IMG/VR virus record: IMGVR_UViG_3300017917_003175
Location: 1 to 54,140 of that record
DNA length: 54,140 nucleotides
Reading direction: 5' to 3' (one strand)
DNA from: a virus
The position numbers and the translations under genes are program-made. Below are positions 3,134 through 38,975 of the stretch, piece by piece (positions within the stretch are counted from its first letter, which is position 1; every line of letters starts with the position of its first letter). The notes below the pieces were generated by a model that did not search any database, was not told the DNA's origin, and worked only from the letters and a program-made list of their open reading frames with translations.

Positions 3134-5257
3134 TTAAATTCCAGCTAGTTTTTTCCAAGCACTTATATCTTCATAACCTGTTCTAGCGTCTTGACCTGGT
3201 ATAACTGGTATAGTTGTTTGACCTGTTGCTTTAGGTTTATTTAATCCACCAGCAATAATTTTAGTCATAAATTCTATATCTTCTTCAAAACTTGCATCTG
3301 TTCCTTTTCCTGGACCTTTACCTACTTGATTAGCCCATTCTTTTAATTCATCTGCTCTTGCTAATGCTTCATCTTCCTCTGCTTCAGCGTTTTCATCTGC
3401 TGAAGTTTCTGCTTCATCACTATCAGGAGGGTTATCTTCTGCTACTTCTTCTTCCTCTTGACCATATGATTCATCTTCGTCAACTACAGCTTCCTCATCA
3501 CATTGACAATCACTTTCCATATAACCGCATTCATTACATTCGTCTTCATGTCCATGGTCGTCATGGTGTTCCTCATCACGATAATCCCCGTCATCACCTT
3601 GGTCCATACCTGATAATTTTTTCATTATACTCATCATACCATCATGATCATCAACAACTTCAATGTCACCATGTGCATGTTTAGGTGTTTCGCCAGTTGG
3701 AGCACCATAGTTACTATGATTCTCATCACCAAATAATCCTAAGCCAGTTTGTTTTATAAAACTTAACAATTTTTCAGCTTCACTGTCTTGTGCGCTTACT
3801 GTAACACTATCTGGTGCACCTTGATTACCTTTGCTAATTGAAACACTCATACCTTCTTCAACTACTTCCCCTTCTGTTAATAAATCATGTAGTTGTTTAT
3901 CTAATGATTCAAAAGCTAAACTAGTTTCTAAAACATCTTTGTCATACATTGTTTGACCGAATGCTTTAAATGTAGGACCTGGTGTTTTGATTGCTTGTTG
4001 CTTCATATATGAAGTTTTATCCATTTCATCCAAATCATCTTCCATTGCAGCATGAGCCATACCAGACATTGTTGAAGGTGGCATGACTGGGGCTGTTTCA
4101 TATACACCTTGACCATAACATTCATCAAGACCTTCTTTAAATCCATCATGGTAAGCTTTTGCTTCTTCCATGTCTTCATATCTGCAATTATAAGCTTCTT
4201 TAGCTAAAGCATGTGCTTTACCCATTAATCTTGCCGAAGAATGTCTGTGCATACTTTCATTAACTTTCTTTTTCTTATCCTTCTTTTCATCATACTCAAT
4301 GTCTTTGGCAACTTTTTTACCAGCCTTTTCTGCCTTCTCATCTTCTGCACCGCGCTTTTTGCCATGAATACCATCTTTTTTCTTTTCATCGTATTCGATA
4401 TCTTTTGTAACCTTTTCACCTGCTTTTTCTGCTTTATTGTCAGCCTTGGCACGGCCTTCAAATGTTGTTTGACTACGCCCAGCACCTAAACCAGCACCCA
4501 GGTCAGCATCATCACTTGGACGCTCTGCTTCATTTACACCTTTACGTAGTTTCGCCAATACAGCACCTGCAACACGTTCACCTGCTGCCTTAGAACCATA
4601 ACGTTCACCTGCATCTTTAGCAATCTTGCCAAATGCCTTACCTGGTTTGCCAATGTCTTTACCGGCACGTGCTTTCTTAGCACTATAATCATCGCTGCCT
4701 TCTTCCATCTTGCCTGGCATTTGTACTTCACCTTGTGCCATTGATTTTTGCATAGCAGCAATTTTATCTGCTCTACCTGTTGCAACTACTTTTTGTGTGG
4801 CAGGATCAACTAGTTGACTTGCGCCTGGCATTGGCTTAACTTGTAATGCCTGACCAGGCGTAGCTTCTTTTATTAACCTTTCTTGGTCAATTTGATCAAA
4901 GAATTCTTTTAGACTATGTTTTTTACTTGGTAAGTTTTTCAATTCTTTACTTGGCTTTTTAGGCACATTACCTACAATAAAGCTTTGTAAATTTTTGCTA
5001 GCTTCTTCTTTGTCTTTTTGTTTTTTCTTTTCTGCTGGACTACTTACATGTGCACCAGTTTTTGCTGGACGGCCACGACTACGTTTTTCTTGAGGTTTCT
5101 TGGCATCTTTATCGCCATCTTTCTCTTCACCTTCTTCGTCAGTGTCATACTTACGACCATAGCCGCCTGGTTCTGCTTTGTGAACACGACCTTTTTCTGT
5201 TTCTTTGGTAGCTTCACTAAGCATTGATAAAGTTTCTAACATGTCTTTAAAATTCAT
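3134..5257 (-). CDS. Highly charged head/core-like structural protein (707 aa)
   Basis: No enzymatic motif is visible. The protein is dominated by Lys/Glu/Asp. A Lys/Arg-rich N-terminal third (about 20-120) is followed by a duplicated segment around residues 270-335 (AEKAGEKVTKDIEYDEKKK, then AEKAGKKVAKDIEYDEKK). A histidine-containing middle follows, then a very acidic stretch with a CNECGYMESDCQC cysteine cluster near residues 577-590, and a more ordered C-terminus. Such composition is typical of prohead core or internal head proteins of T4-like phages. The N-terminus contains LSE at residues 13-15, matching the (L/I)-x-E rule for cleavage by the T4 prohead protease. It follows the 207-aa gene by 17 bases and is closed by a strong terminator. 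The core assignment is an inference. Confidence 0.5.
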   Translation of the reverse strand: MNFKDMLETLSMLSEATKETEKGRVHKAEPGGYGRKYDTDEEGEEKDGDKDAKKPQEKRSRGRPAKTGAHVSSPAEKKKQKDKEEASKNLQSFIVGNVPKKPSKELKNLPSKKHSLKEFFDQIDQERLIKEATPGQALQVKPMPGASQLVDPATQKVVATGRADKIAAMQKSMAQGEVQMPGKMEEGSDDYSAKKARAGKDIGKPGKAFGKIAKDAGERYGSKAAGERVAGAVLAKLRKGVNEAERPSDDADLGAGLGAGRSQTTFEGRAKADNKAEKAGEKVTKDIEYDEKKKDGIHGKKRGAEDEKAEKAGKKVAKDIEYDEKKDKKKKVNESMHRHSSARLMGKAHALAKEAYNCRYEDMEEAKAYHDGFKEGLDECYGQGVYETAPVMPPSTMSGMAHAAMEDDLDEMDKTSYMKQQAIKTPGPTFKAFGQTMYDKDVLETSLAFESLDKQLHDLLTEGEVVEEGMSVSISKGNQGAPDSVTVSAQDSEAEKLLSFIKQTGLGLFGDENHSNYGAPTGETPKHAHGDIEVVDDHDGMMSIMKKLSGMDQGDDGDYRDEEHHDDHGHEDECNECGYMESDCQCDEEAVVDEDESYGQEEEEVAEDNPPDSDEAETSADENAEAEEDEALARADELKEWANQVGKGPGKGTDASFEEDIEFMTKIIAGGLNKPKATGQTTIPVIPGQDARTGYEDISAWKKLAGI

Positions 5258-5274: not shown

Positions 5275-5898
5275 TTAAGCACTAGCACCAGTTTTTGGTT
5301 TAGCAGGTCTAGTTATTTTACTCATTGGACTGTTAAGTCCTCTTGGATCATTTGCTAAATATGGTTTAAATGGGTCGAATGCATTTGGAGTCACTTTAGC
5401 ATCAAATGGCATATCAATCTTATCATCTTTGGTCTGCTCTTTTATACTTGACAAATAACTATCACCATAAGCTTTACTGGCTTGTTTAGCAGCATCAGTA
5501 GTTTCCATTTCTTCGTGAGTCAATACTGGGCTATGCTTCATTTGATTATCATATTGTTCTGCCTCAGCATTCATACTATCATCAAAATTTGTAGAAATAA
5601 CTCTAACCATGTTTACATTGTATCCGCATAATTGTGCTATTTGTTGTATCATAGGTTCTGTAGCTGGATATCTAAATTTTGCTTTCATAACCAAGACAGG
5701 TTGATTAGTAATACCTTGAAAGCCAAAAGGTGTTTTTTGAATTGGAGTGGTTACTGGTTCACTAAATTCAATAGGATCAAACTTTTTTAAATTAAATTTA
5801 AATAAATCCAAAAAGTTTTTATCTACCTCTCCGGCAATCTTAATCGTACAATTATAAGTATGTACACTTTCTGCGATATATTGTTTTAGGCTTTTCAT
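5275..5898 (-). CDS. Putative head-associated protein with capsid-targeting N-terminus
   Basis: The 207-aa product starts MKSLKQYIAES. This is a short basic/hydrophobic leader ending in I-A-E, which fits the (L/I)-x-E cleavage signal of T4-type prohead proteases. Residues 15-110 look like a compact alpha/beta domain; the C-terminal 100 residues are polar and Pro/Lys-rich. It has its own late promoter at 5918, an AGGA ribosome site, and neighbours that are head or packaging genes. I recognise the type from T4-like phages but no assigned function. An internal head or scaffold role is inferred from the leader and position. Confidence 0.45.
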   Translation of the reverse strand: MKSLKQYIAESVHTYNCTIKIAGEVDKNFLDLFKFNLKKFDPIEFSEPVTTPIQKTPFGFQGITNQPVLVMKAKFRYPATEPMIQQIAQLCGYNVNMVRVISTNFDDSMNAEAEQYDNQMKHSPVLTHEEMETTDAAKQASKAYGDSYLSSIKEQTKDDKIDMPFDAKVTPNAFDPFKPYLANDPRGLNSPMSKITRPAKPKTGASA

Positions 5899-34334: not shown

Positions 34335-35648
34335 TTATTTTTTCATTCTTCCAATAGCATTCAAGCGACTAAACTTAGGTCTGTTAACAAATTTAATACC
34401 ATGTGAAACGTAACCTTCTTGTCCTAACGTTTTATCGCTTAAGACTCCGGTAACTGGACTATTTGCCTCTGCTTGGTCTAATTGTTGCCATACTGCCATT
34501 TTCAATTGATATATAGCTAACCATAGCATAAAAAATGCTTGTATGCCTTCTGTATTATTATCTAAGTATCCTGGAACTGTTTGATTTGTTTTAGGATCAA
34601 CATGTGTGAATAATGCTGCCTTATGAGATTTTGGCATATTTCTTTGTTTAGCAAAATCATAAAAGTCTTGTGCTAAATTACTTTGTAAATTTCTACCTGT
34701 ACCATCATCTGTATTAATTTTATTATTAATAAAAACCCCTAGTAAATTGTCTCTAAATGCATCTACAGGTATGGGTGCATTGCTTAAAAATTGATCAACA
34801 CTTTTCCCATATGCTTGTATAGCTTTATTTACATTAGCTAATGCTTGTGTAGGAACTTGTAAATCTGTCTTTTGAGTAAGCTTACTGGGTAATATAGCAA
34901 CGTTAGTATTATTTTTTAACTTACCTATAGTCCCGCCTAAACTACTACTCATATCGGTTGGGCTTATTTTTTTGGCTTTACGGCCTTCTTTTTCAGCTAA
35001 TTTATTTTCTAATTCTTGCTGTTTTAACGCACGTTCAGCGGCATCAGCTGGTAATGTCATATGTACACCAACACCTGCTATTTTATTTGTAATTAATCTA
35101 CCCAAGTCACTATTTACATCAATCTTATATTCAACTCCATTTGGATTAGCTTTAAAACTATAAACATCACGTACACGATTACCTATTTTTTCTTTTGTAG
35201 GAGTCAGTGGTTGACTAAAAAGAAAGTCTCCCCAATAATAACCTTTAGTACCTTGACTTGCACGTTCTAGGTCGTCCCAAATATTTGTTATATAATCTAA
35301 TAAATTACTACGATCTTTGCCACGTGCTAAATCATAATCTCTAAATTCTTCAGGGCTATGTATATTTCTACCTGATCCATCAGCTTTATTAAACATATGT
35401 TTATCTGCAATAATAAATTTACCATCTTTGCCACGACCAAATATCAATGCAGGATAACCGTCCCATTTAATAGTAATGTCATTTGGATTTTCTATTGTAG
35501 ATATTATAGCATTTTTTGCATCTTCGGCACCCTTTTTACCATTCATGTAAACCCAATCTTCAGGATGTGGTGCATGTCCTCCTTTAAAGGCTTCAGTAAT
35601 ATACTCTAGTTTGTCTCTAAAATATGCTAGTGATTCAGTTATGTTCAT
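34335..35648 (-). CDS. Nucleotidyltransferase/ligase-like head-associated protein (DUF6267-like)
   Basis: A 437-aa protein. Residues 57-66 read DITIKWDGYP: K61-W-D-G fits the K-x-D-G nucleotidyl-lysine motif of DNA/RNA ligases and capping enzymes. A strand at 77-88 (KFIIADKHMFNK) and YYWGDFLFS near 138 follow, like ligase motifs Ia and III; VEYKIDVNS could be motif IV. The N-terminus MNITESLAYFRDKLEYITE has I-T-E at 17-19, a possible prohead-protease site. If both readings are right, this is an enzyme packed inside the head. No clear OB fold is evident. It overlaps the 81-aa gene by 14 bases. Catalysis is not proven. Confidence 0.55.
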   Translation of the reverse strand: MNITESLAYFRDKLEYITEAFKGGHAPHPEDWVYMNGKKGAEDAKNAIISTIENPNDITIKWDGYPALIFGRGKDGKFIIADKHMFNKADGSGRNIHSPEEFRDYDLARGKDRSNLLDYITNIWDDLERASQGTKGYYWGDFLFSQPLTPTKEKIGNRVRDVYSFKANPNGVEYKIDVNSDLGRLITNKIAGVGVHMTLPADAAERALKQQELENKLAEKEGRKAKKISPTDMSSSLGGTIGKLKNNTNVAILPSKLTQKTDLQVPTQALANVNKAIQAYGKSVDQFLSNAPIPVDAFRDNLLGVFINNKINTDDGTGRNLQSNLAQDFYDFAKQRNMPKSHKAALFTHVDPKTNQTVPGYLDNNTEGIQAFFMLWLAIYQLKMAVWQQLDQAEANSPVTGVLSDKTLGQEGYVSHGIKFVNRPKFSRLNAIGRMKK

Positions 35649-35880
35649 TTTTTTTAAGTGACTTGGTAAATTTATCTTGGTCTCTTACCCTAATTGAATT
35701 CAAAAGCTTACGCTCTAATACTTCTGCTGTATTTTTATCGTAGTGCTTGTTTATAAGTTCTAATAGATTTATAGCACTGGTAATTATATTTCTAGCCCTA
35801 TTTTCAATAAGGTGTGAAACATCACGATTATTGCCTATAAGTTCTAATTCTTCTAAAAGGCTTCTAGTTTTCTTTTGCAT
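35635..35880 (-). CDS. Conserved small helical protein (81 aa)
   Basis: All-helical, with ENRARNIITSAINLLELINK as the conserved centre and a basic C-terminus (VRDQDKFTKSLKK). In T4-like aquatic phages similar small proteins precede the KWDG-type gene, as here, suggesting cooperation. GATAAATA (35886) ends six bases before the ATG and no ribosome site is seen, so the transcript may be leaderless. Confidence 0.55.
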   Translation of the reverse strand: MQKKTRSLLEELELIGNNRDVSHLIENRARNIITSAINLLELINKHYDKNTAEVLERKLLNSIRVRDQDKFTKSLKKNEHN

Positions 35881-35885
35881 TAAAA

Positions 35886-35893
35886 TATTTATC
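35886..35893 (-). promoter_or_regulatory. Late promoter GATAAATA abutting the start codon (leaderless candidate)
   Basis: GATAAATA on the minus strand with its last base six positions before the A of the ATG at 35880. T4 late transcription would start on or next to that A. Confidence 0.55.
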
Positions 35894-36578
35894 GTAAATT
35901 ATACTTTTGGACAAGTTCGTTTCTGTTTTCAATATAAGTTTCAAGTGCTGTATAACATGCTTTTGGTATATTTTCAATTCCTGTAATATTTTGAAGTATG
36001 GTAAAAAGTTTATACTTCCCATTTTCTTTTTCAAATATACTTTGATAATTAATTTCTATAACATTATTGAAATTTGACTTTTTTTCTATAAACCAATTTA
36101 ATGAATTTTTTTCTTTAAATTTATTATTAATCTTTACAAACAATTCTAATGCTTTTTTGCTAACTACAATTTCAGAATTTTCAGAATTTTTGTACAAACC
36201 ATTAAAAGTTATTTCTTTAACATCATCTATCGTCAATCTTAATAAAATAATAGTGCTTTTAGCAACGTCTTCATTAATGTTTTCAGAAGAATTAAATGGA
36301 AAACAATGTGTGCATATTAAAAAAAGTCTGTTTAATTTATATTCAGGAAGTATATAATGTTTATGATTTATATTATCATGCCAAATCAATCGCTCATAAA
36401 TATTAAAGTTTGGGTCATACATTCCATGACCTACGTAATATGTATTTTCATGGGCGGAATTATTTTTACTTATAATGATTGGGTCCTCACTCTGATTAAT
36501 TAATCTATGTACCAAGACGGCTAAAAATCTTCCAGAACTTCCAGGATAAAAACTTATAATAAATTTATTGTTATTCAT
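35889..36578 (-). CDS. Sulfotransferase-like P-loop protein
   Basis: The 229-aa product begins with FIISFYPGSSGRFLAVLVHR. The strand followed by YPGSSGR (residues 11-17) resembles the 5'-phosphosulfate loop of sulfotransferases (YPKSGTT type). The later region (STIILLRLTIDDVKEITF) and an FINKACYTALE-like helical C-terminus are compatible with a P-loop fold, but I do not see the 3'-phosphate motif. It overlaps the helicase start region by 4 bases. An alternative is an unrelated phage P-loop protein; function is unproven. Confidence 0.4.
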   Translation of the reverse strand: MNNNKFIISFYPGSSGRFLAVLVHRLINQSEDPIIISKNNSAHENTYYVGHGMYDPNFNIYERLIWHDNINHKHYILPEYKLNRLFLICTHCFPFNSSENINEDVAKSTIILLRLTIDDVKEITFNGLYKNSENSEIVVSKKALELFVKINNKFKEKNSLNWFIEKKSNFNNVIEINYQSIFEKENGKYKLFTILQNITGIENIPKACYTALETYIENRNELVQKYNLR

Positions 36579-38017
36579 TTTTTATTAGTAAGCGTATTAA
36601 GCAAACTTTTTAATCTAGTTGATTGTATATCCGCTGTTATTTTTTTATTTATAGGATCAACTACTTCATGTACCTTATCATTTAAAGTTAAATTTGGTTT
36701 AATTTGTTTCATAAGTTCGTTCGCTGATGGTTGCTGAACATATTTAGCTTTATCTTCTAAATCAGGATCGGTTATGCGTAATGTTTCTACGTTGAATTCA
36801 AGTTCTATTTTTTGTCCTACCCCACTACTACTACGTGTTTTCATTAACTGTAATTGATATTGTCCTCGTTCCCGCATATGTCGACTAGTAAATATGCCGA
36901 ACACGTTATCTGCTGTATTAATTTTACTAATACCACCACTAATATGACTATGATCAAATTCAATTTCATCCACTGCCGTTCTATTCAATTGACTAGCAGT
37001 GACTAACAATACATTTAACTCTTTTGCTAAGTTTCTTAATTCTTCACTAACATATTTGTCTTTTACGAATAAATCACTAGGACTTACTTTTGCTCCTACA
37101 GGCATTAATAAATCTAAGTAATCAATACAAAGAAAATCTACTTTAACTCCTGTTTGTATTTCAAGTTCTTTTACATAAGCACGTACATCATTTACATTAC
37201 TTTGTGCAGGGAGATATTTAATTCTAAACTTTCCTGTTTTTTTAGATAACATTTTAATTTTCATTTCAACTGTATCTAATTCTTTAAAAATTTCACGGCT
37301 TGGTGTATCAGTCATCATAGCATCAATTCTATGGGCACATAAGCCTTCATTTAATTCAAGTGTAATATATGCTCCATTAATACCTGCAAGTAACCAATTA
37401 ACTGATAAATTTTGCATGATAAGTGATTTTCCCGAACCAGATCCACCTGCAAATATTTGTAATTCTCCTCTATTAAATCCTCCATATAACTTATTGTCAA
37501 GTGTAGGCCATCCTGAACTTATCTGCCCATTATTTGATTTAAGACCTAAAAGTCTTCCTCTAGGATCTGCAAAGTAATCAGTACCCATGTCACGTTGTAA
37601 ACTAATTTGCACTGCATTTTTAATTAGATTTTCAATTAGACTCCAATTTTTAGTTTCTTTGTTGTCTAATAAATCAACTGACTTATAAATTGCTCTTGTT
37701 ATTTCTTCCTGTCTTGTAAATATTTCAAATTCATGCAAAAACCATTCATAATGACCATCTGATAATTCTGTAATTGTTTCAACTTCTATACCCGTAGTTG
37801 CTTTTATCTGTAAAGGATTAGGCATTGCATTGTAGTCTTTGCAATGATTAATTATAAATTCAACTGCAGGTCTTAAACTTTTATCAAAGTTATTTACATT
37901 CATAATGTTCATAACTCTAGTATAAAGCTCAACATTTGTTATCATCATACGCAAAAATAACATTTGTACTTCAACTTTATTAAGTTCGTCTTTAATGTTA
38001 TTATAATTGTCTTTCAA
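36575..38017 (-). CDS. 41: Replicative DNA helicase gp41 (DnaB family)
   Basis: A 480-aa RecA-fold helicase, close to T4 gp41 (475 aa). Walker A is GGSGSGKS near residue 190, Walker B FLCIDYLDLL near residue 295, and motif H4/arginine-finger region is QLMKTRSSSG near 410. The N-terminal domain is helical, as in DnaB. It unwinds DNA 5' to 3' on the lagging strand with the gp61 primase. It overlaps the primase gene by 17 bases and so is translationally coupled to it. Confidence 0.93.
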   Translation of the reverse strand: MKDNYNNIKDELNKVEVQMLFLRMMITNVELYTRVMNIMNVNNFDKSLRPAVEFIINHCKDYNAMPNPLQIKATTGIEVETITELSDGHYEWFLHEFEIFTRQEEITRAIYKSVDLLDNKETKNWSLIENLIKNAVQISLQRDMGTDYFADPRGRLLGLKSNNGQISSGWPTLDNKLYGGFNRGELQIFAGGSGSGKSLIMQNLSVNWLLAGINGAYITLELNEGLCAHRIDAMMTDTPSREIFKELDTVEMKIKMLSKKTGKFRIKYLPAQSNVNDVRAYVKELEIQTGVKVDFLCIDYLDLLMPVGAKVSPSDLFVKDKYVSEELRNLAKELNVLLVTASQLNRTAVDEIEFDHSHISGGISKINTADNVFGIFTSRHMRERGQYQLQLMKTRSSSGVGQKIELEFNVETLRITDPDLEDKAKYVQQPSANELMKQIKPNLTLNDKVHEVVDPINKKITADIQSTRLKSLLNTLTNKK

Positions 38018-38975
38018 TTCGTCTCCTTTGTAATTCTACCTTTAATTTATTATTTGAAGCATTATTTAATATACTCAAAAATGTAGGAACTTTTCCATAT
38101 TTTACAACAGCATCATTAACATCTTTAATATTTTTATCCCACTTAGGTATACTAACATAATATCCTAATTCCAATGCTTTATCTATTGTAGCTAGTCCTG
38201 CTATATCCTGATCAGGTACAAATATAATCGGTCTGTTTAATTCTTCTAGTAACATTGACTGGTTTTCATTAATAGTATTATGTGTTAATGCACATCCATT
38301 TATTGATAATGCGTCAAATATTCCTTCTACTAATATACAAACCTCATACTCTGGTTTTTGAAAATCAATACCAAATACATAACCAGGTTGATTTTCATTT
38401 ATAAATTTAGGCTTTCTATCATCCAAATATCTACTTGTTCTACCAACAATTTTATTTTTGTAAGTGAATGGGATTATAATACGATTAGATTGACGACCTT
38501 CTAGATTTGGAGTTACTAAAAAAGGATAATCATTGTAATTTATCCCACGTTTAATTAGATACTCGATAAATTTTCTATGTTGTTTGTTATTACTGTCAAT
38601 TAGATCACCTTCATCTAATATGAATTCATTAAATTTAATTTTGTTTTTTTGTTTTTTAATTTTTACCAAATTTAATAAATCTTTATGTTGTGCGCTTTCC
38701 AAACTATATTTGTTAATTTGTGCCTCTTCTACACCGCACCAACTAAGTAATTTTTTTGTATTTTTAGTTAAGCTTTTACCTAACATAAACCCACATTTGA
38801 AACCACAATTAAAACAATGGTAAGACCAGTTCTCACCATCTTTTTTGATACCACCGCGTAATCTTGTATCAGGTTTATGTCCTCTATTTCCACAACAAAT
38901 AGCATTAAAGCTATACCAACCACTTTGTGTTAGTTTCTTTTTGCCTGCTATTAATGTAAGGATATCAATCATCAT
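38001..38975 (-). CDS. 61: DNA primase gp61
   Basis: The 324-aa product (T4 gp61 is 342) has an N-terminal zinc-type region with CCGNRGH near residue 27 and YHCFNCGFKCGF near residue 54. A TOPRIM-type core follows: ILVEGIFDALS (acidic Glu) near 213 and IIFVPDQDIAGL (Asp-x-Asp) near 250. It makes RNA primers for lagging-strand synthesis with gp41. The start is ATG at 38975 or 38972. TATAAT lies three bases before the first ATG, so transcription would begin at about 38972, giving a leaderless message. Confidence 0.9.
   Translation of the reverse strand: MMIDILTLIAGKKKLTQSGWYSFNAICCGNRGHKPDTRLRGGIKKDGENWSYHCFNCGFKCGFMLGKSLTKNTKKLLSWCGVEEAQINKYSLESAQHKDLLNLVKIKKQKNKIKFNEFILDEGDLIDSNNKQHRKFIEYLIKRGINYNDYPFLVTPNLEGRQSNRIIIPFTYKNKIVGRTSRYLDDRKPKFINENQPGYVFGIDFQKPEYEVCILVEGIFDALSINGCALTHNTINENQSMLLEELNRPIIFVPDQDIAGLATIDKALELGYYVSIPKWDKNIKDVNDAVVKYGKVPTFLSILNNASNNKLKVELQRRRIERQL

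Follow-up and report, generated by a model that had tools for sequence, protein, structure and literature searches.

In bacteriophage T4, the internal head proteins and Alt carry a short N-terminal leader that ends in (L/I)xE. T4 also encodes RNA ligase 1 (Rnl1; RnlA, Pfam RNA_lig_T4_1, PF09511), for which the invariant residues of 38 sequences include K99, D101, G102, E159, E227, G228, K240 and K242. Both systems bear on DUF6267 (PF19782), a Pfam family to which no function is assigned, labelled T4-like cluster GC 71 in cyanomyoviruses. The T4 internal proteins are not ligases, unlike the DUF6267 candidate considered here, whose packaging is read from sequences; the (L/I)xE leader is common to the T4 proteins and many DUF6267 members. 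We propose, with a probability of about 0.5, that DUF6267 proteins are divergent covalent nucleotidyltransferases nearest to T4 RNA ligase 1, which would seal ends and would be packaged in some lineages.

The window is a 54-kb fragment (54,140 nucleotides; IMG/VR record IMGVR_UViG_3300017917_003175) of a T4-related phage, with genes for a gp41-type helicase, a primase, a UvsW-like helicase, a gp15-like protein and the tail sheath. The closest helicases to that of the window belong to the PA5oct group and Atu_ph07 jumbo phages. The open reading frame under study (Table 1) matched DUF6267 over residues 25-430 with E=7e-33 (114.9 bits; gathering cut-off 27). A near-identical copy of the protein (99%) was found in contig L001, and L002-L011 carry relatives at 40-48% identity; in all of these the 81-aa gene of Table 1 is kept between the helicase and DUF6267. 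L001 also holds, in tandem, two matches (L001:1572-2858; 91% and 52% identity) to a 229-aa gene of the window at 35889-36578. By tblastn, 304 phage records were matched with the window protein as query and 468 with a cyanophage DUF6267 member, and an IMG/VR search yielded hundreds more sequences. The family is common among T4-like ocean phages; its carriers include hundreds of phages with sequenced genomes and viral contigs in the many hundreds, and our literature search found no paper naming it. Within DUF6267, the window protein falls in the clade that diverges most; it has a longer leader than the rest and an additional insert of charged residues.

Table 1. Position of the DUF6267 gene, its sequence features and neighbouring genes in the window
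Feature	Position	Strand	Remarks
DUF6267 ORF, 437 aa, candidate ligase-like nucleotidyltransferase	34335..35648	(-)	ATG start, intact; Pfam PF19782
Candidate capsid-targeting leader, residues 3-19	35592..35642	(-)	I-T-E at 3-5 and 17-19
Invariant H25-xx-H28-x-E30-D31 block, directly after leader	35556..35576	(-)	Both alignments
Motif I, K61-W-D-G64	35457..35468	(-)	Aligned with T4 Rnl1 K99-E-D-G102
Motif Ia lysine, K83	35400..35402	(-)	Aligned with Rnl1 K119
Motif III-like G140-D141	35226..35231	(-)	Position of Rnl1 E159, by motif order
Mostly helical insertion between motifs III and IV, about residues 267-395	34464..34850	(-)	AlphaFold secondary structure
Motif IV, E411-G-Y-V414	34407..34418	(-)	Aligned with Rnl1 E227-G-Y-V
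Motif V, K419-x-V-x-R423	34380..34394	(-)	K419 aligned with Rnl1 K240; Rnl1 K242 without counterpart
81-aa gene overlapping DUF6267 start	35635..35880	(-)	phrog_11854 'virion structural protein'
DnaB/gp41-type replicative helicase, upstream of DUF6267 gene	36575..38017	(-)	~50% identical to PA5oct gp260
DNA primase	38001..38975	(-)	phrog_47

The initial annotation had likened K61-W-D-G and later blocks of the protein to the nucleotidyl-lysine motifs of ATP-dependent ligases. These blocks are present, and their conservation was read from two DUF6267 alignments, of 52 and 72 members. The columns invariant in both include H25, H28, E30, D31, K61, W62, D63, G64, P66, K83, G140, D141, P169, Y174, H196, E411, G412, V414, K419, R423, F426 and N430, among them the K61, D63, G64, GD141, E411-G-x-V and K419 of the proposed motifs. 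Because of this invariance and the strength of the Pfam match, the motif blocks go beyond a chance resemblance. In the cyanophage short forms (about 290-325 aa), the insertion between motifs III and IV is much smaller and motif I reads KYDG, KIDG or KMDG; K, D and G are kept and the tryptophan varies, which suggests that the tryptophan is not essential, a change that the ligase pattern K-x-D-G would allow. In a long form of the family (~630 aa; L012:1876-3777 and about 50 related loci), NTITES stands before a second domain and may be a further site for the prohead protease within the protein. In S-PM2 (L018:5983-7762), DUF6267 is split over two ORFs, the second consisting of the C-terminal half fused to a nucleotidyltransferase; BFVD holds another S-PM2 entry, of 591 aa, that matches over most of its length.

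Motifs I, Ia, IV and V of DUF6267 come in the same order as those of T4 RNA ligase 1 and in register with them, and in both families motif V is followed by an aromatic residue and a polar one. Motif I follows K-x-D-G in all 72 members, and motif IV follows E/D-G-hydrophobic, E411 lying in the hhalign register of Rnl1 E227. Unlike Rnl1, DUF6267 has an invariant D (D141, 72 members) in place of the motif-III E, and its motif V has the first lysine of K-x-K alone. The S that follows KxDG in Rnl1 is mostly replaced by x-P, the helical domain, which in Rnl1 comes after motif V, is placed between III and IV, the HxxHxED block is extra, and many members bear a capsid-type leader.

For profile comparison, we built profiles of Rnl1, RNA ligase 2 (Rnl2) and ATP-dependent DNA ligase; Rnl1 was picked after the motif resemblance had been noticed. 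Aligned by hhalign at full length, DUF6267 matched Rnl1 with P=0.0027 and a score of 31.9, the maximum among decoys from 56 other phage families being 21.8. Rnl1 was the sole responder of the three profiles; those of Rnl2 and DNA ligase, which are narrow, gave no match. The C-terminal segment alone scored above all 56 decoys (P=2.4e-4) in the register E411/E227 and K419/K240, and the N-terminal segment, not significant alone, gave the register K61/K99 and K83/K119. With the insertion omitted, one colinear alignment spanned both halves (P=0.0045). The short forms alone matched weakly (P=0.12), and motif I was out of register both with the mixed A4 alignment (P=0.021) and with a merged alignment (P=0.0024). 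By the same method, the known homologues Rnl1 and Rnl2 gave P=5.6e-4, and Rnl1 against DNA ligase gave P=0.18. By this yardstick, DUF6267 and the bridge proteins described below fall in the range to be expected of true but distant members. Direct searches were negative: the window protein had no match to PF09511 at E<=1, nor had the window record, and PF09511 was absent among the top families of the 52 members. Pfam and PDB sequence searches with the DUF6267 protein returned no ligase, and neither did PDB sequence searches with the 52-member alignment, A4, PA5oct gp256 or Phosso 446.

The last two proteins, gp256 of PA5oct and 446 of Sinorhizobium phage Phosso, form a bridge between DUF6267 and Rnl1. 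Both occupy a comparable place after the helicase and share the motifs of DUF6267 (EKIDG/EKLDGS, EGYVI/EGVVI and K-x-V-D-K); in PA5oct there is also a conserved neighbour, gp255, the gene after gp256, which matches, with E=7e-42, the ORF that lies immediately upstream of the DUF6267 gene in L316. Unlike DUF6267 members, they are not recognised by Pfam DUF6267. Phosso 446 further differs in having KLDGS and a motif-III E, as in a canonical ligase, and its sole Pfam match was RNA_ligase (E=0.085). The joint profile of the two bridges matched Rnl1 with P=4.6e-4 (score 36.1; decoy maximum 26.7) and the short DUF6267 forms nearly end to end with P=1.3e-5. A gene-pair partner of DUF6267 or of the bridges (L441:8460-9479, L439:4037-4954) looks by eye like PD-(D/E)XK nucleases; its PA5oct protein had no Pfam match.

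AlphaFold models of the window protein and of a second member (L098) had mean pLDDT values of 84.9 and 85.6. In the first model, pLDDT was below 50 at residues 15-24, around the second I-T-E site. Its best Foldseek match in the PDB was the adenylyltransferase domain of a tRNA ligase (E=0.1), and T4 Rnl2, Trl1, an archaeal DNA ligase and AsfvLIG stood in the same list; none of these matches was significant. In a viral library, RNA and DNA ligases ranked after the DUF6267 members themselves. The second model returned mostly long-helix proteins and no ligase among the top 50, a result apparently driven by its long helical insertion. Ligases were thus among the Foldseek matches of the first model, below significance, and not among the top 50 of the second. 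The earlier reading of a packaged nucleotidyltransferase is therefore backed in its enzymatic part by sequence (motif register, Rnl1 profile and bridges) and not by structure. Judged from the sequence comparisons, the window protein is quite probably a ligase-type nucleotidyltransferase and, if it is one, true end sealing would be likely.

The initial annotation had also seen an I-T-E processing signal in the N-terminus, like that of T4 internal head proteins. Two I-T-E sites are indeed there, in a leader that is longer than the T4 form M-x-x-F-x-x-(F/Y)-(I/L)-x-E and does not fit it. As a three-residue match, the I-T-E of the window would say little by itself; what strengthens it is that [LIV]xE recurs shortly before HxxHxED: an [LIV]xE is found in the leader of 42 of the 45 DUF6267 clusters with a readable start and in 6/6 members of the window clade, whose leaders are longer and less T4-like. 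Many other DUF6267 leaders resemble those of T4 internal proteins (MKGFTQFIAEQ, MNFKEFITEQ), and the phages with leader-bearing DUF6267 include HTVC008M, the Melnitz phages, DLP6 and C48C1. The L/I of (L/I)xE lies at positions 4-11 in 37/45 clusters (82%), compared with 86 of the 471 remaining proteins encoded at these loci (18%); the 82% is our own count from the 45-cluster table, the dereplicated comparison set having kept just 6 DUF6267 rows. The leader counts are not independent, as they correspond to about three changes on the tree, and the leaderless cyanophage groups cluster together. A gp21-type (S77) prohead protease was found in 18/24 and 5/5 of the records searched of related genomes, including PA5oct and Phosso; it was not found in the window, which is a fragment.

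Virion proteomes of three cyanophages bear on the leader rule. Mass spectrometry lists an HxGH nucleotidyltransferase in the virions of S-CREM2, S-SCSM1 and S-SZBM1 (PMC10665884, PMC9602691, PMC9146016), and the authors of the S-CREM2 and S-SCSM1 studies caution that such proteins might be carry-over from purification. All three enzymes have T4-type leaders (S-CREM2 MKNFSSFLTEA, S-SCSM1 MKSFLQFLKEA, S-SZBM1 MRFRQFIIEA). The DUF6267 proteins of these phages have no leader; within the accessible parts of the reports, they are absent from the virion tables of S-CREM2 and S-SZBM1 and not annotated as a virion protein in S-SCSM1. This pattern fits the leader rule, and it says nothing direct on the window protein. 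A search for direct virion evidence of any leader-bearing DUF6267 protein yielded none. Because these three leaderless relatives are missing from the accessible virion lists or annotations, packaging is unlikely to be universal in DUF6267. The HxGH gene adjoins DUF6267 in S-SZBM1 and lies apart from it in S-CREM2 and S-SCSM1. The S-SCSM1 virion proteins gp89 to gp93 were checked as possible DUF6267 members and are not. HxGH nucleotidyltransferases beside DUF6267 often have a T4-type leader of their own (L290:5694-7082, L337:5760-6893, L440:5619-7571, L424:5257-6345), and relatives are in cyanophage virion lists.

In the mechanism that we propose, K61 would take AMP from ATP (or NAD+), in a pocket that K83, D141, E411 and K419 would complete. 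The AMP would be passed to a 5'-phosphate end, which would then be sealed to a 3'-OH, and the helical insertion that separates motif III from motif IV would probably bind the substrate or a partner. In lineages with an (L/I)xE leader, perhaps including that of the window, DUF6267 would be loaded into the prohead, the gp21-type protease would cut the leader and the enzyme would reach the host along with the DNA. Members that lack the leader would act inside the infected cell only. Delivery in the capsid is plausible where a leader is present; for the window protein itself we put packaging slightly short of an even chance. If leader-bearing forms are indeed packaged, DUF6267 would to our knowledge be without precedent as an enzyme of ligase type that a phage head delivers, and many further injected phage enzymes would be predicted by the leader rule. 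A wider picture, in which T4-like ocean and jumbo phages use an unrecognised ligase family that fills the cyanomyovirus gap, in many lineages packed into the capsid with a leader-bearing nucleotidyltransferase and further leader-bearing proteins and injected to mend nucleic-acid ends as infection begins, seems to us rather improbable.

DUF6267 could instead belong to the replication module, as a DNA or RNA ligase that works inside the cell, is not packaged and in cyanomyoviruses replaces the missing gp30 DNA ligase, its (L/I)xE leader being an ordinary variable N-terminal helix. The family is close to a gp41/DnaB helicase gene in several deep clades, and the three leaderless cyanophage members discussed above agree with this explanation too. 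A 2010 review found no g30 homologues in cyanomyoviruses (PMC2984593), and our searches for PF01068, PF01653 and PF09511 gave no match in ACG-2014e, C48C1, HTVC008M and S-PM2, while finding PF01068 and PF09511 in T4; PF09414 (RNA_ligase), searched in IMG/VR records, was not found over cut-off. If true, a ligase assignment of DUF6267 would bear directly on this gap (PMC2984593). However, a DNA ligase is also present in some DUF6267 carriers (DLP6 and the long-form contigs L196, L217 and L229), so a simple ligase-replacement role is not general, and replacement of a missing ligase as the sole role of DUF6267 is weakened by this co-occurrence. A host ligase could also serve in place of gp30, and the leader pattern is far commoner in DUF6267 than in neighbouring genes. 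We regard a purely intracellular ligase as unlikely. A P-loop kinase (Zeta_toxin/AAA_33) follows DUF6267 in HTVC008M, and one clade has nearby a leader-bearing HAD-like protein (L238:3816-4568, MQLFEDYIYES) with a weak polynucleotide-kinase match; such kinase-type neighbours hint at end repair.

A ligase-fold enzyme with another reaction is a further alternative: nucleotide transfer to a protein, a nucleic-acid end or a small molecule, together with the fused or adjacent HxGH nucleotidyltransferase. The HxGH motif occurs near DUF6267 in 212/336 loci, in S-PM2 the nucleotidyltransferase is fused to the C-terminal half, and motifs III and V deviate from true ligases. Against this, we saw none of the residue patterns that mark known capping or AMPylating families, and Rnl1 was the best match of the three profiles compared; we consider such a reaction quite unlikely. 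That DUF6267 has no enzymatic activity and serves as an internal head protein or binds DNA, its KWDG likeness being convergent, as the lack of a significant Foldseek enzyme match for both models and the predicted virion proteins among nearby window genes might suggest, is very improbable, given that catalytic-type residues are among the most conserved across sequences ~20% identical and that the bridge proteins retain most of them.

Besides the DUF6267 protein and our preferred reading of it as a ligase, packaged in some lineages, other leader-bearing proteins were seen. In the window, a 207-aa protein (5275-5898, (-)) without Pfam or PHROGs match starts with MKSLKQYIAES, which closely fits the capsid-targeting leader of T4. 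A 707-aa charged protein of the window (3134-5257, (-)), with LSEA at residues 13-16 and no family match, is a candidate internal head protein. A third protein, at L310:3111-4025, has the leader MITFKQYIAEQ and weakly matches the Alt ADP-ribosylase family (E=0.005).
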